A stretch of 64,000 nt of DNA from Flammeovirgaceae bacterium (GTDB lineage Bacteria; Bacteroidota; Bacteroidia; Cytophagales; Cyclobacteriaceae). Shown piece by piece: positions 4,743 to 34,783 of the stretch. The notes under the pieces were generated by a model. The model was not told the DNA's origin, searched no databases, and was given only the letters and a program-made list of their open reading frames with translations. Both the position numbers and the translations under genes were made by a program. The stretch spans positions 1 to 64,000 of the forward strand of contig JABMNK010000092.1 in assembly GCA_013204595.1 (NCBI GenBank), given 5' to 3'. Positions within the stretch are counted from its first letter, which is position 1. Each line of letters begins with the position of its first letter.

Positions 4743-5075
4743 CTATTTGGTTTCCAACTTTACATGAGCAACAAGCTTATCACACAACGTATTTATTTCA
4801 GTGGACATAAACTCGTCACCTGTCGCATTCAACAATGTTTGACTGATTCCCCCAAGACAATCGATATAAAATCGTTTCATTTCATCAACTGGCATATCTT
4901 TTGTCCAGAGATCTATTCGCAAGGTATTTTTCTGATCATTGTCCCAAAGTGCTATACTTATTGATTTGGTTTCTGATAGCCCTACATCTTCTTTTTCATC
5001 AGCATCCCACTCTATTTTCTCAGGTATGTTGGCTGAATCTAGCGATATCTTAAATTTAATTTCTGATTGCTTCAT
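4743..5075 (-). CDS. gldC: Gliding motility protein GldC
   Basis: A 110-residue soluble protein matching the GldC family along its length. The conserved core is LRIDLWTKDMPVDEMKRFY at residues 52-70, followed by the usual C-terminal helix. GldC is required for full gliding in Flavobacterium; its biochemical role is not established. It is the last gene of the ftsX-DUF3098-uppP-truB-ribF-gldC operon: its ATG overlaps the ribF TGA as ATGA (5075-5072), indicating translational coupling. Confidence 0.88.
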   Translation of the reverse strand: MKQSEIKFKISLDSANIPEKIEWDADEKEDVGLSETKSISIALWDNDQKNTLRIDLWTKDMPVDEMKRFYIDCLGGISQTLLNATGDEFMSTEINTLCDKLVAHVKLETK

Positions 5076-6019
5076 TTTACACTTAATCTATTGATTCCTA
5101 ATATTTTTTTGGCTTCACTTTTATCAATGGCCAATTGTATTTTCAAGTCATTCAAATGATTGAATTTTATCTCATGCCGAATATAACCGACAAATTCAAT
5201 GGAAAGATGATTCCCATAAATGTCTTCATTAAAATCAAAGATATTTACCTCGATCGTACGTAGGTTCCCGTTAAGTGTCGGTCGAACGCCTATATTGAGC
5301 ATTCCCTCAAAATGACGTAGTTCTAAAGACACAAAAACGGCATAAACCCCATCAGCGGGAATAAGTTTATAAATCTCTGGAATAAAAATATTGGCCGTAG
5401 GGAATCCTAATTTCCGACCTATTTGAGCTCCCTTGGTGACAATCCCAGAAAGACTAAAATACCTCCCTAAATAATGTTTTGCCGTGACTACATCTCCGCT
5501 AAACAGTGCCGACCTTATTTTTGTTGAGCTTACCCCTATCTGATCGATATCAAGTCGAGAAATTTCAGCTACATCAAAACCAAAACGATCTTTATTGGCC
5601 GTTAAAAATTGTATATCTCCCAATTGATTTTTACCAAATCGATGATCATACCCAATAAGAAATTTCCTTATCCTCAATCCACTTATCAATACCTTCTGGA
5701 CAAATGCTTCAGGCGTTAATTCCGAAAACTCCTTTGAGAACCTTACCTTAAGTAAATAATCAACTCCTATTTTATCCATTAAAGCTACTTTTTCATCAAA
5801 AGTGCTCAGTAATTTCAAAGTACTCGTTCCTTTGCCTAAGATAAATTTGGGATGAGGCCAATAGGTAATAACAACACTTTCACCCCCATTTAATTTCGCT
5901 TGACTGACTAAGCCCTCCAATATTTTTAAGTGCCCTGAGTGTACCCCATCAAAGGTCCCACTCGTGACGACCGGCCATTTAAGTTCACCTAATTCCTCAA
6001 AATGATCAATTACCTTCAT
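5072..6019 (-). CDS. ribF: Bifunctional riboflavin kinase / FAD synthetase
   Basis: RibF makes FMN from riboflavin plus ATP and then adenylates it to FAD. The N-terminal adenylyltransferase half carries the nucleotidyl-transferase motif GTFDGVHSGH at residues 21-30 and a later VSSTKIRSAL motif. The C-terminal flavokinase half begins around residue 185 with SGIVTKGAQIGRKLGFPTAN. At 315 residues the length is normal for the family. Its ATG lies inside the 3' end of truB (14-nt overlap) and its stop overlaps gldC, so it is translated within a tightly coupled operon. Confidence 0.95.
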   Translation of the reverse strand: MKVIDHFEELGELKWPVVTSGTFDGVHSGHLKILEGLVSQAKLNGGESVVITYWPHPKFILGKGTSTLKLLSTFDEKVALMDKIGVDYLLKVRFSKEFSELTPEAFVQKVLISGLRIRKFLIGYDHRFGKNQLGDIQFLTANKDRFGFDVAEISRLDIDQIGVSSTKIRSALFSGDVVTAKHYLGRYFSLSGIVTKGAQIGRKLGFPTANIFIPEIYKLIPADGVYAVFVSLELRHFEGMLNIGVRPTLNGNLRTIEVNIFDFNEDIYGNHLSIEFVGYIRHEIKFNHLNDLKIQLAIDKSEAKKILGINRLSVK

Positions 6020-7722: not shown

Positions 7723-8613
7723 TTAATAGAGTTCATCTAATGATATTTTGAAATTACGATTCATTGATAATGACGTACTAAAATAAGCCAATAGCATACC
7801 CCCCATTACCAAGCAGGCGCACAACATAGTTACCTGATCATTATTATAAAGCGAATTCAAATCTGCAAATTGAGCATTTGCCAATCGAATGATCGCGTAC
7901 AAAACAGCAGACGCCAACAATCCAGATATAAGTCCATATAACAACGCTCTTTTTAAAAAAGGCCATTTAATAAACCCTTTTGTCGCGCCGACAAGTTGCA
8001 TACTCCTAATTAAAAATCGTTGCGAAAATAGCGCTATTTTTATAGTGTTATTAATCAGAATAACCACCGCTATCAATAATATAATCGTAAGACCTAAAAA
8101 CAACGAACCAAGAATTCTTGTATTCTTATTGATACTATTCACCAAAGACTCCTGAACAACCACCTCAAAAACGCCCACCAATTGATTGATATCTGTTCTT
8201 ATTTTTTCAAGACTATCCAACGAATGATATTGGGAATTTACCTTTACAATCAATACATCTCTCAAGGGATTGTCCCCCAGGAATTCCATAAAATCTTCAC
8301 CTGTATCTTTTATAAAGTCTTCAGCAGCCTCTTGCTTACTGATAAACTTAATACTTCCATTTTGATTTTCCTTTGGTAAGTAAGATTTAGACGCTATAAT
8401 CTTTTGCAATCGGAGTATTTCTGAATCATTGACTGATTTATCTAAATAGACTTGCACCTCCACATTTGACTGAACAATGACCGTAAGTGCATTTAAATAG
8501 ATGAATAAGATGCCGAAAATACCTGCTACTATCAAAGAAAGAGTAATACTGAAGATTACACTTATGAACGGGAAACTTCCCAACTTTCTTTTGCGCCTTT
8601 TTTGATTAGTCAT
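7723..8613 (-). CDS. ftsX: Cell division protein FtsX
   Basis: FtsX is the permease-like partner of the ATPase FtsE; together they activate peptidoglycan hydrolases at the division septum. The 296-residue protein has the expected topology: cytoplasmic basic N-terminus (TNQKRRKRKLG), TM1 at about 17-38, a large periplasmic domain, then three C-terminal helices of the FtsX domain (about 170-290). ftsE is not adjacent, as is common in Bacteroidota. The ATG at 8613 is favoured over an open extension to 8646 because a promoter-like TAGATTTG box sits at 8627-8620, inside that extension. It is the first gene of a six-gene operon. Confidence 0.9.
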   Translation of the reverse strand: MTNQKRRKRKLGSFPFISVIFSITLSLIVAGIFGILFIYLNALTVIVQSNVEVQVYLDKSVNDSEILRLQKIIASKSYLPKENQNGSIKFISKQEAAEDFIKDTGEDFMEFLGDNPLRDVLIVKVNSQYHSLDSLEKIRTDINQLVGVFEVVVQESLVNSINKNTRILGSLFLGLTIILLIAVVILINNTIKIALFSQRFLIRSMQLVGATKGFIKWPFLKRALLYGLISGLLASAVLYAIIRLANAQFADLNSLYNNDQVTMLCACLVMGGMLLAYFSTSLSMNRNFKISLDELY

Positions 8614-8659: not shown

Positions 8660-8821
8660 CTATTTATTGTTTCTGAATTCCATTAAATAATTTATCAACT
8701 TAAGGTCCTCCATAGGAAATAATTCTAATGTCAACTCAGTAAAAGGAAGCGAATAATAATTACCCATATAATAGAGATATATGTTTTTTCCGACACTTGA
8801 ATTAATTTCTAAAATCTCGTA
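8660..8821 (-). pseudogene. In-frame 3' continuation of the anti-sigma gene past a TAG stop
   Basis: Directly after the TAG at 8824-8822 the same frame stays open for 53 codons and ends at a second TAG (8662-8660). The translation begins YEILEINSSVGKNIYLYY and has protein-like character: alternating hydrophobic strand (NIYLYYMGNYYSLPF), then an amphipathic helix (PMEDLKLINYLMEF). It fits as the natural C-terminus of the protein encoded at 8825-9649, giving about 329 residues. The TAG could have arisen from TTG, TCG or CAG by one change. A real nonsense mutation, stop readthrough or a sequencing error would all look the same here. Confidence 0.55.
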
Positions 8822-9649
8822 CTAAGATTTTTCAAAATTCTTCATTAGCACAACTTCTTTGTTTTGATAAGTGTATTGAAGTTTTTTAGACTTTTTATCA
8901 ACAAACTTGACGGATAAAGGTTGCTCAGTGTCCTCAGTTAGAAATCTTGACCTTGTTGCCTTATTGTTAAAACCTATATCATCTGATTGCTCTTTTTTCG
9001 CCACCTTTCTAGCGATTACAGGCTCGAATTTTTCAAGTTCTGGGAAGGATTTTACAACAGCTACCGATGAAGCTGAATCTACTATTTTAACTTCTTCTTT
9101 TAATTTCAATTGTCCCATATGCTCATGAGTGTTTTCAGAATCAACATAGTCTATCGTAGGGCTTTCTTCCTGTAATTCCGATTTAGTCACTTCGTCAAAG
9201 ACATTAGTAGTAACATCATTTAAAAGAACTTCTTGATCAATACTCGATATATCTTTCAAATCATCCTGCTGCGCCATAGTGTCACCTAACAAGAAACCTT
9301 CCTCATTCAACTGCTCCTGTACGGGCTCGACAGGATTTATGAAGTAATAACCAACTCCAATCATTACCACGCCAGCCGCTACGTATAAAACTTTACTTAA
9401 GCCACTGGAAACTAACCCAGAAGCGTCAAATACAACATTACTGGGGATATCTATAGCACTCAATTTGGCTTTTAATGAAATCCTTTTAAATTCATTAATG
9501 CCCTCCATGATTTGCTCCTCATTCTTAACTTGACTATTCAAATCAGGATTTTCTTTCATCCTAGCTTCTAAAAGAACCTTATCCGCATCTGAGAGCCTAC
9601 CCGTCAAGTATTCTCCTATAATAATATCATTATTATCTTCTAAAGCCAT
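8822..9649 (-). CDS. Membrane anti-sigma-like protein, probably truncated by TAG
   Basis: The 275-residue product has a cytoplasmic N-terminal region (1-85) with EYLTGRLSDADKVLLEARMKEN, the helical pattern of zinc-free anti-sigma domains, one transmembrane helix at about 86-104 (YVAAGVVMIGVGYYF), and a long acidic, low-complexity periplasmic region. Its ATG directly follows the stop of an ECF sigma gene with no spacer, which is the normal sigma/anti-sigma arrangement, so I infer that it holds that sigma factor at the membrane. The stop TAG at 8824-8822 interrupts a frame that continues 53 codons; the lost part would be the C-terminal periplasmic domain, not the sigma-binding end. Confidence 0.65.
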   Translation of the reverse strand: MALEDNNDIIIGEYLTGRLSDADKVLLEARMKENPDLNSQVKNEEQIMEGINEFKRISLKAKLSAIDIPSNVVFDASGLVSSGLSKVLYVAAGVVMIGVGYYFINPVEPVQEQLNEEGFLLGDTMAQQDDLKDISSIDQEVLLNDVTTNVFDEVTKSELQEESPTIDYVDSENTHEHMGQLKLKEEVKIVDSASSVAVVKSFPELEKFEPVIARKVAKKEQSDDIGFNNKATRSRFLTEDTEQPLSVKFVDKKSKKLQYTYQNKEVVLMKNFEKS

Positions 9650-10201
9650 TTATTCAAAAAAATAAGCATGATTATAACTCTTCTTGATCAAAGTATCCAA
9701 TCTTTGTTTACACTTATATTTTTTAGTCTTAGCAGTATCTGCATTGGAAAAACCCAATCTTTGAGCAATTTCTGACATCGATAACTGCTCGAAATAATAG
9801 AATGTCAATAAACTTTGACAAGGCTCTCCTAATTGCTGCATACTCTTAAGTACAATGTCCAAATTTTGATTCTCGCGTGGCGCCTGAAAACTCTGTCCAT
9901 CCATCTCTTCACGGCTAAATCTCTTTTTTCGATCCAACTCCTTTCGCCATTGATTCTGGCAAACGCTATAGAAATAAGTGCTTATCTTGGATGTGATAAT
10001 CAACTTACCACTGATCACCTTTTGCCAAAAAACGATCAACGACTCTTGAAAAACATCTTGAGCTTCTTCTCTAGAACCACTGTTATTAATTACCATTTGG
10101 GTCATCATTGGATAGAACTTTTTATACAAATAGTCTAGAGCCCTTTCATCTTTTTTTGTAAAAAAGTCTAGAATTTCCGAGTCTTTCATAGCCTTATACA
10201 T
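9650..10201 (-). CDS. RNA polymerase ECF-type sigma factor
   Basis: A 183-residue sigma-70 family factor of the ECF group. Region 2 is at about 15-85 (DERALDYLYKKFYPMM; SREEAQDVFQESLIVFWQKV) and region 4 at about 115-175 (LGEPCQSLLTFYYFEQLSMSEIAQRLG), joined by a short linker, with no regions 1 or 3. It redirects RNA polymerase to a small regulon, probably for an envelope signal given the membrane partner encoded immediately downstream. An alternative start at 10189 (MKDSEILDFF) is equally plausible. A small perfect inverted repeat lies just upstream at 10216-10227. Confidence 0.88.
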   Translation of the reverse strand: MYKAMKDSEILDFFTKKDERALDYLYKKFYPMMTQMVINNSGSREEAQDVFQESLIVFWQKVISGKLIITSKISTYFYSVCQNQWRKELDRKKRFSREEMDGQSFQAPRENQNLDIVLKSMQQLGEPCQSLLTFYYFEQLSMSEIAQRLGFSNADTAKTKKYKCKQRLDTLIKKSYNHAYFFE

Positions 10202-32904: not shown

Positions 32905-34245
32905 TTATTTAAAGTTATAACGTACTCCAGCCATAACACCAAATCCATTTGGACTAGCAGAAAAATTGGAAAAATCTCTAGTAATGGATTGAAAAGACTG
33001 TGTATAATTAGGTTCCAACGTGAAATCAACTTTTTCCAAAACTCTGTACCCCAAACTAAATCCTGTTTGCCCTGAAAATGAAATGTCTTTATAAATAATG
33101 TTGTCACCGGATTTATAAGAATAAAATGTTTGATCATCTAATACGTCAGTTTTAACGTTTCCTAAATAAAAATTAGTAACAACTCCAGCATTAACACGAA
33201 CAGTCAGTTTTTGATCTATTATTAAATAACCCGCCCGAATAGGAATTGTCGCAAAATCAATCTTATTTTGAAAGGCTAAATTTTCTTCCGAATAAGAAAT
33301 ATATTGGGATTGATTGGCTGACGATTTAGACTTATTTTGATTGGATATGTCGGAAAACTGATTACTACCGATAGGCATGGAAGTAGGGAAATAAAACTCT
33401 TGAATAAGCAAATTCGAATGCTGAATCAGCTCGGCTTGACTATATTGAACACCCCCTTCTATTGTGAATCGATTCTTAACAACCATTCCTAGATTAAACT
33501 CGATTTTTCTAGTGACACCAGCCGTCATAGTTTCATTTAATGATGCGACAGATCCTCCTAATCCATTCATGAATTCCGGATTCATACTTATTCCAGTTCC
33601 AGGTAAGGAGCTCTGATTCATCTGAAAATTAGGATCGTAAGTTGATCCACCAACGTTAATACCCGCCCACAAACGGGTAGTTGATTTATCAATAATATTT
33701 GTGTTGAAGATAACAAAGTTAAAATTAGGAATGATTTCCATTTCTTTATCTAAATCAATTGCGGCAACTTCCTCTAAATCCTTCTTTACTAAAAAATCAG
33801 ACAATATCATTTTTGAAGAATTATCCAATCTATTTTCAAGAGCACTAATTTCCGTAATAACCGATTTTGAAGTCTGCTCGCTACCAATGGATTGTACCAC
33901 TAGAGGTGTGTCTTTAAATCCAAAATCATCGTCTATTAAAACTGCTCTGAAGTCATTATTTTTTGAGTCCTTTGAAAAATTAATTATTGAGCTCCATGAG
34001 AGTTGATCGGCTCCTAGATAATCTCTCCATTGAGATGGTAGCGAAACACTTATGGAAACTATAACAGCAATGACAGCCGTCCACTTATATATTGTATTCT
34101 TTAGCTGATAGCGAGAGATAAAAAAGGCATCCATACGCCCCCTAATCGCAGACCAAGTTCTGTCTGACGGCTGAATCTCTGCCGAGGCCAACGCATCTCT
34201 CCAGCTCTTGGCAAAATCATCTATATTTTGTGAAGGCCTATCCAT
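32905..34245 (-). CDS. Inner-membrane-anchored anti-sigma-like protein with beta-barrel-like domain
   Basis: A 446-residue protein with an unusual layout. Residues 1-50 are cytoplasmic and helical (DDFAKSWRDALASAEIQPS; WSAIRGRMDAFF), like the N-terminal part of anti-sigma factors. Residues about 52-70 form one transmembrane helix. After an acidic linker (75-170), residues about 190-446 look like an outer-membrane beta barrel of the PorT/OmpW size, with alternating strands (TRLWAGINVGGSTYD; RFTIEGGVQYSQAEL; LTVRVNAGVVTNFYL) and the ending FGVMAGVRYNFK. The start overlaps the ECF sigma stop by 8 nt, supporting a sigma-control role. How a helix-anchored protein places a barrel domain is unclear; the barrel may fold in the periplasm or be released by proteolysis. 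Confidence 0.7.
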   Translation of the reverse strand: MDRPSQNIDDFAKSWRDALASAEIQPSDRTWSAIRGRMDAFFISRYQLKNTIYKWTAVIAVIVSISVSLPSQWRDYLGADQLSWSSIINFSKDSKNNDFRAVLIDDDFGFKDTPLVVQSIGSEQTSKSVITEISALENRLDNSSKMILSDFLVKKDLEEVAAIDLDKEMEIIPNFNFVIFNTNIIDKSTTRLWAGINVGGSTYDPNFQMNQSSLPGTGISMNPEFMNGLGGSVASLNETMTAGVTRKIEFNLGMVVKNRFTIEGGVQYSQAELIQHSNLLIQEFYFPTSMPIGSNQFSDISNQNKSKSSANQSQYISYSEENLAFQNKIDFATIPIRAGYLIIDQKLTVRVNAGVVTNFYLGNVKTDVLDDQTFYSYKSGDNIIYKDISFSGQTGFSLGYRVLEKVDFTLEPNYTQSFQSITRDFSNFSASPNGFGVMAGVRYNFK

Positions 34246-34783
34246 AATTAATATTATTTCTGGTCTCCATTTTTTGGATTAATAATTTTTTGGCTCTAGC
34301 ATATTGGGATTTGGAGGTACCCTCACTAATCTGTAATTGCTCAGCAATCTCATGATGTTTATAACCCTCAATAGCGTGCAAATTAAAAATGATCCTACAC
34401 CCATCAGGCAATTCCATGATCATCATAATTAATTCTTCATATCCAAAATCAGACATGACTTTCTCATCTATCGAAGTATCGGTCATATCAGTAACGTCCA
34501 TCATAGGATATAAATACAATTTACTTCTTTGATGATTCAATGAAGTATTCACTACGATGCGCTTTATCCAATAAGGTAAAGACGAATCCCCTCTGAATTT
34601 GCTGATATTTTTAAAAACCTTAACAAATGATTCCTGTAAAATATCTTCTGCTTCTTGCACAACTTTAACATACCTTAAGGCAACCGCGAACATAGATTTT
34701 GAATACTTAGCATAAAGTGCCTCTTGAGCACTTGATTTATTTTTTCTACAACCTTTGATTAAAACCTTATCGGAATCATACAT
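34238..34783 (-). CDS. RNA polymerase ECF-type sigma factor
   Basis: A 181-residue ECF sigma factor. Region 2 spans about 10-75 (AQEALYAKYSKSMFAVALRYV; EAEDILQESFVKVFKNI; LPYWIKRIVVNTSLNHQR) and region 4 about 115-175 (LPDGCRIIFNLHAIEGYKHHEIAEQL; SEGTSKSQYARAKKLL). It overlaps by 8 nt the gene for its probable membrane-bound regulator. It is divergent from the Plug gene, with about 70 nt between the starts, so the type IX secretion gene could be part of its regulon; this is inference. Confidence 0.9.
   Translation of the reverse strand: MYDSDKVLIKGCRKNKSSAQEALYAKYSKSMFAVALRYVKVVQEAEDILQESFVKVFKNISKFRGDSSLPYWIKRIVVNTSLNHQRSKLYLYPMMDVTDMTDTSIDEKVMSDFGYEELIMMIMELPDGCRIIFNLHAIEGYKHHEIAEQLQISEGTSKSQYARAKKLLIQKMETRNNINYG

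Follow-up and report, generated by a model that had tools for sequence, protein, structure and literature searches.

The question raised by this locus is whether a TAG codon in the frame of an anti-sigma-like gene ends a naturally short protein or interrupts a longer one and, in the latter case, what the interruption represents. The window, that is, the whole stretch of 64,000 nucleotides that was analyzed, lies on the contig labelled C81 of an assembly (G000) of 3.01 Mb in 137 contigs. On its minus strand, a gene for an ECF sigma factor of 183 aa (9650..10201) was recognized by NCBIfam TIGR02937 sigma70-ECF (E 2.6e-16, 59.7 bits vs. a cut-off of 42.9) and by Pfam Sigma70_ECF (21.7 bits vs. 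21.1), with regions 2 and 4 scoring slightly under their own cut-offs. Its end at 9650 abuts the start of the anti-sigma-like gene (8822..9649, minus strand), which opens with an ATG at 9649-9647 and runs for 275 codons to the TAG at 8824-8822; the same order of the two genes is found in homologous loci, and the pair is kept across many Cytophagales genomes. The next gene downstream is ftsX (7723..8613, minus strand, start codon at 8613), whose product is over the cut-offs of both Pfam FtsX_ECD and FtsX. Elsewhere in the window, a further frame resembling a sigma factor lies at 34783-34238; directly after it comes a frame of 446 aa that, judged by eye, probably contains a membrane helix. Together these two frames, both of them open, span 32905-34783.

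A previous reading, made from the sequence alone, had proposed that the frame stays open beyond the TAG as far as 8660 and that this extension is the coding C-terminus of the protein. The frame does continue: 53 open codons (8663..8821, minus strand) follow, and they end at the stop that naturally closes the frame, again a TAG (8660..8662, minus strand), within a few residues of which the homologues end. Openness after a stop is by itself weak evidence of coding. Indeed, an open run of 53 codons has a chance of 0.025 on base composition, and 7/56 window ORFs, the anti-sigma-like gene among them, are followed by a same-frame open run of at least that length. Codon usage was set aside as a test of the tail, being uninformative: the score is low (3.3 bits in total, or 0.06 per codon vs. 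0.20 per codon before the TAG). It is homology that decides.

The sigma protein served as the query for the relatives' stretches, of which the best 80 of 228 were used; their titles are mostly Cytophagales, Cyclobacteriaceae, Flammeovirgaceae, and similar. The gene following the sigma gene was taken from 110 loci, and 101 distinct sequences were aligned with the read-through frame. The nine loci left out were the window's own (L001), a misjoined one (L016), two whose sigma match was just 30-31% identical and which therefore represent other pairs (L028 and L030), one sharing its genome with L020 (L029), one in which the contig ends inside the gene (L104), and three exact duplicates (L040, L058, and L064). 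L016 (G009, 241 aa, ending in TAG) was considered as another early-stop case within the genus and rejected, its frame entering folE on a contig of 4.1 kb (G009:C67) that looks misjoined.

In the alignment column of the TAG, 100 of the 101 homologues carry a residue (P in 52, L in 31, T in 6, I in 5, K in 3, Q in 2, and V in 1), one has a gap, and none has a stop; in all of them 49-64 residues follow this position, vs. 53 here. The tail is also the best conserved of the five regions measured, with a mean identity to the homologues of 0.36, compared with 0.27 for residues 1-70, 0.19 for 71-105, 0.09 for 106-230, and 0.18 for 231-275, and every tail position with at least 70% conservation is kept (13/13). 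The full frame is present in eight genomes of the same genus (L002-L009), within which pN/pS is 0.22 in the tail, the lowest of four regions (0.32, 0.36, and 0.47 in the others), so that the strongest purifying selection within the genus falls on the tail. Since all 101 aligned homologues run on past the TAG position, the tail is coding, and the 53 codons are the genuine C-terminus of the anti-sigma-like protein. The extension proposed by the sequence-only reading is thereby upheld, both by the homologues, 0/101 of which end at the TAG, and by the strands and end helix predicted for it (see below). The gene is better described as a frame of 329 codons with one internal stop than as a 275-residue protein followed by non-coding DNA.

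To see where the stop falls in the protein, we consider the AlphaFold2 models, in both of which the TAG was read as leucine (our choice). The whole model, built with 72 sequences (pLDDT 70.6, pTM 0.38), comprises confident helices at residues 3-16, 21-33, and 35-65, which presumably form the sigma-binding part (residues 3-65; 9455..9643, minus strand), a membrane helix at residues 85-104 (9338..9397, minus strand) predicted with modest confidence and matched by hydrophobic sequence, a linker of low confidence, and a confidently predicted domain that extends from about residue 245 to the C-terminus. Three strands of this outer domain are predicted before the stop (246-250, 258-262, and 265-269, in the first part of the domain, residues 245-275; 8825..8917, minus strand), and three further strands (277-283, 288-294, and 297-300) and an end helix (316-328) after it; folded alone, the domain gives the same elements with a mean pLDDT of 89.0. 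According to the model, then, the TAG lies between the third and fourth strand and would cut a single outer domain in two rather than trim it at its end. Of the roughly 85 residues of the domain (about 245-329), 53 are lost, and the three remaining strands seem unlikely to fold. It had been suggested that only the periplasmic end is removed, so that sigma binding might be kept: this stands insofar as the N-terminal and membrane helices lie upstream of the TAG and are untouched, an anatomy with which retained sigma binding would fit, and it needs amending insofar as the stop splits one folded domain.

The identity of the two ends of the protein can be described only in part. The N-terminal region finds its best structural match in the anti-sigma factor RslA, with a Foldseek probability of 0.91 but an E of 0.72, and the comparison of the two (Z 6.0, rmsd 5.5, 64 residues aligned) lies below the safe level of the tool, so that the likeness is suggestive only. 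No Pfam or NCBIfam anti-sigma model was over its cut-off for the protein; zf-HC2 appears at E 0.01 in 5/72 aligned members, the protein studied not being among them. For the outer domain, neither a Pfam family at E 0.01 nor a match to solved structures with E <0.001 was found, its best Z being 4.2 with the whole model and 3.0 with the isolated domain. A conserved sigma/anti-sigma pair thus carries an outer domain with neither a Pfam family nor a clear structural match.

Does TAG terminate translation in this genome? Of 26 genes in the first 28 kb of the window, 24 have a syntenic relative in one or both of two related genomes (G003 and G007), and 23/24 end between -3 and +6 codons from the stop of a relative. 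The sole early-ending gene is the anti-sigma-like one, 53 codons short with respect to both relatives. All the other TAG-ended genes of this set (6/6) end 0-4 codons from a relative's stop. TAG closes 11/56 ORFs in the window (the anti-sigma-like gene included) and 10/85 in stretches of other contigs of the same genome, and in the relatives' stretches 6/40 in G003 and 1/16 in G007. The evidence says that TAG acts as an ordinary stop in this genome. In the same comparison we observed that the relative of window gene 5072-6019 in G003 (L167, C1:260000-279999) seems to end about 127 codons early, whereas G007 agrees with the window.

The idea that UAG has been reassigned as a sense codon draws on the gene for release factor RF1 (prfA), which was not found in the window's gapped assembly, prfB being present; RF1 was over the cut-off in 34/39 genomes searched, the window's own being counted in the 39. 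The others are G000, G005, G006, and G031, with only a weaker prfB-type match, and G023, with a partial match at a contig end slightly under the cut-off. Despite the missing RF1, the positions of the relatives' stops, the natural TAG stop of this very gene, and the fact that none of the other genes compared is interrupted by a TAG lead us to reject reassignment, to which we attach next to no probability. We also observed that G031 (L175-L178), a genome of the same order (1.6 Mb, 20 contigs, 93% complete), has no RF1 over the cut-off and yet ends 11/68 sampled ORFs in TAG.

As for the whereabouts of RF1, its gene in G003 adjoins one of more than 2000 codons, and the block there consists of RF1, a 464-aa protein, and the very long gene, the last of which we consider a likely gap site. 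The downstream neighbour of RF1 in G003 was not found in G000 either, an empty result that shows nothing. The next conserved neighbour is present in G000, about 7 kb inside a contig of 64.5 kb and beside a different gene, and the matching place (G000:C108) holds a different 394-aa frame instead of the RF1 block; therefore, the block has moved or is missing in G000. Because TAG still ends genes, we take the RF1 gene to lie, presumably, in an assembly gap. A tRNA with anticodon CTA was likewise not found among the 20 typed tRNAs of the assembly; Ala, Asn, Gly, Ile, and Lys are all absent from this set, which means that the assembly is gapped, and for this reason the missing RF1 and the missing CTA tRNA weigh little.

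The conservation of the tail means that the stop is young, or absent from the DNA of the cell, or read through. In a neutral simulation, the probability that all 13 conserved positions are kept fell from 0.24 at 0.05 changes per site to 0.06 at 0.10 and to 0.017 at 0.15, so that the stop would be young if the tail is untranslated; the same-genus relatives are distant, with pS of 0.75-0.83 by region, that is, saturated. With moderate confidence, we favor the explanation that this genome carries a recent nonsense allele of the anti-sigma factor gene, which is conserved and in other respects intact. This explanation is in agreement with the continuation of 101/101 homologues past the TAG, the conservation of the tail, the termination at the six other TAGs, and a natural stop that, 53 codons on, is the same codon.

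The main rival to the nonsense allele is an error in base calling or assembly, or a mixing of strains, the living cell having a sense codon and a full protein. Such an error yields an identical picture, and without reads the two look alike; we consider it possible, if doubtful. It is in line with the fragmented and gapped state of the assembly (137 contigs, no RF1, five amino acids without a typed tRNA), with the integrity of all the conserved tail positions, and with a single early-ending gene among 24 comparable ones, as one stray error would give. Against it, the 24 genes compared with relatives show no further sign of error. Moreover, substitution errors that create stops are rare in a well-covered consensus sequence.

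A further point bearing on an error is the local sequence, since the TAG codon lies in the 7-nt loop (8818-8824) of an imperfect inverted repeat (8798..8844) whose arms, 8798-8817 and 8825-8844, are complementary at 15/20 positions, a spot where copying may fail. The repeat was found post hoc. Just 63 of the 64,000 bases of the window lie in such loops (loop of 3-10 nt), and at the same codon none of the 101 homologues is above 12/20 complementary. The repeat may mark a place prone to mutation or to error, or may be due to chance, and we give it little weight.

The same hairpin might be invoked for programmed or leaky readthrough, in which ribosomes would at times decode UAG as an amino acid, so that a full-length form is made alongside a short one lacking the sensor. 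The tail appears to be still under selection, an RF1-poor cell would read through more (and the RF1 gene was not found), and the UAG sits in a hairpin loop absent from the homologues; in addition, some stops, TGA foremost, were highly read through in E. coli reporters under stress at certain positions (PMC11126739). The locus also resembles known cases of bacterial readthrough in that a stop is followed by an in-frame, meaningful, and conserved coding extension, a feature not specific to readthrough, because a new mutation or an error predicts it likewise. On the other hand, the stop occurs in 0/101 homologues, so that there is no conserved switch, and the predicted stability of the RNA around the stop and downstream of it does not exceed that of shuffled sequences (z 0.24, -0.61, and 0.12). 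In the E. coli reporters (PMC11126739), readthrough is lower at TAG than at TGA, and termination is favored when, as at this locus, the base following the stop is a T; the locus differs from the readthrough cases described there both in an unconserved stop and in a termination-favoring context. That no CTA-anticodon tRNA was found, in an incomplete tRNA set, points the same way. We therefore regard readthrough as improbable, and as the least supported of mutation, base-call error, and readthrough. In a more specific form, the UAG in the hairpin loop would be a newly acquired translational switch, most ribosomes making a sensor-less anti-sigma factor and a few of them the sensing form; to this we give only a slight chance. 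Were it true, the set point of the sigma factor would depend on the efficiency of termination and hence on RF1, and readthrough, if shown, would be an unusual way of tuning an ECF switch.

The residues just before the stop deserve a separate comment. L266V and G270K (window 8840-8854) affect residues kept in 95% and 97% of the homologues, and 3/6 of the pre-stop positions with at least 70% conservation are lost; the eight same-genus proteins lose none of these, and losses are as many in at least five other homologues. Judged from the alignment, such changes seem odd for a freshly broken gene and tell against a nonsense allele, unless selection had already relaxed. They might suggest instead an established short form, i.e., a truncated anti-sigma factor long kept with a function of its own, the tail being a relic. 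A relic would decay, yet the tail keeps all of its conserved positions and shows no further stop in 53 codons, and we find such a form very hard to credit. Returning to the nonsense allele, selection on the outer domain may have relaxed already before the stop arose.

We also asked whether decay is faster in the window's genome in particular. The sigma protein is 58.8% identical to its same-genus relatives vs. 62.8% for the neighbouring FtsX, and in the comparison with the other homologues it is the better conserved of the two (55.9 vs. 47.0). In the sigma tree, no tip is longer than the window's branch (0.65), and the stem leading to the remaining members of the genus, at 0.74, is long as well. 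The identity of the anti-sigma-like protein to its homologues is low for the identity of ftsX (second lowest mean residual of 84), and relative to sigma identity it ranks 15th lowest of 84, which is not unusual. With long branches on both sides and an ordinary value relative to sigma, we do not read these data as a decay peculiar to this genome.

If, as we infer, the TAG base is real, the nonsense allele would act as follows. The ribosome would halt at the UAG and release a protein of 275 residues in which the linker and both the N-terminal and the membrane helices are retained and the outer domain, presumably periplasmic, is reduced to its first three strands. This truncated protein would no longer sense its signal and would probably be degraded or leaky, leaving the sigma factor partly or wholly free, by analogy with MucA22. 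The phenomenon is most likely an ordinary one, and its importance as it stands is small, since truncating mutations of anti-sigma genes are already known to free sigma factors. A literature search on truncated or nonsense anti-sigma alleles returned no paper matching all the terms.

Concerning known systems, the protein resembles the class I anti-sigma factors (PMC7406223) in lying beside an ECF sigma gene and in having N-terminal helices, one membrane helix, and a C-terminal outer domain. Class I factors have an N-terminal three-helix bundle plus a fourth helix, and here three confident helices lie within residues 3-65; unlike them, the protein is under the cut-off of all the anti-sigma Pfam and NCBIfam models. 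A neighbour of this kind is reported for only 6% of the ECFs of Bacteroidetes (PMC7406223).

For the truncation, the closest parallel comes from Pseudomonas aeruginosa, in which the truncated anti-sigma factor MucA22 lets AlgT(U) act; MucA22 originated by a one-base deletion and its effect was measured (PMC6546240). The allele considered here comes from an environmental genome of Cytophagales type, involves a nonsense codon, and is known from sequence, the likeness being one of layout only. In both cases, an anti-sigma factor that spans the membrane and belongs to an ECF-type sigma factor has its outer part cut off and its cytoplasmic part left (PMC6546240 for MucA22); at the present locus, the stop falls inside the outer part, the cytoplasmic and membrane parts are intact, and the relatives are full-length.
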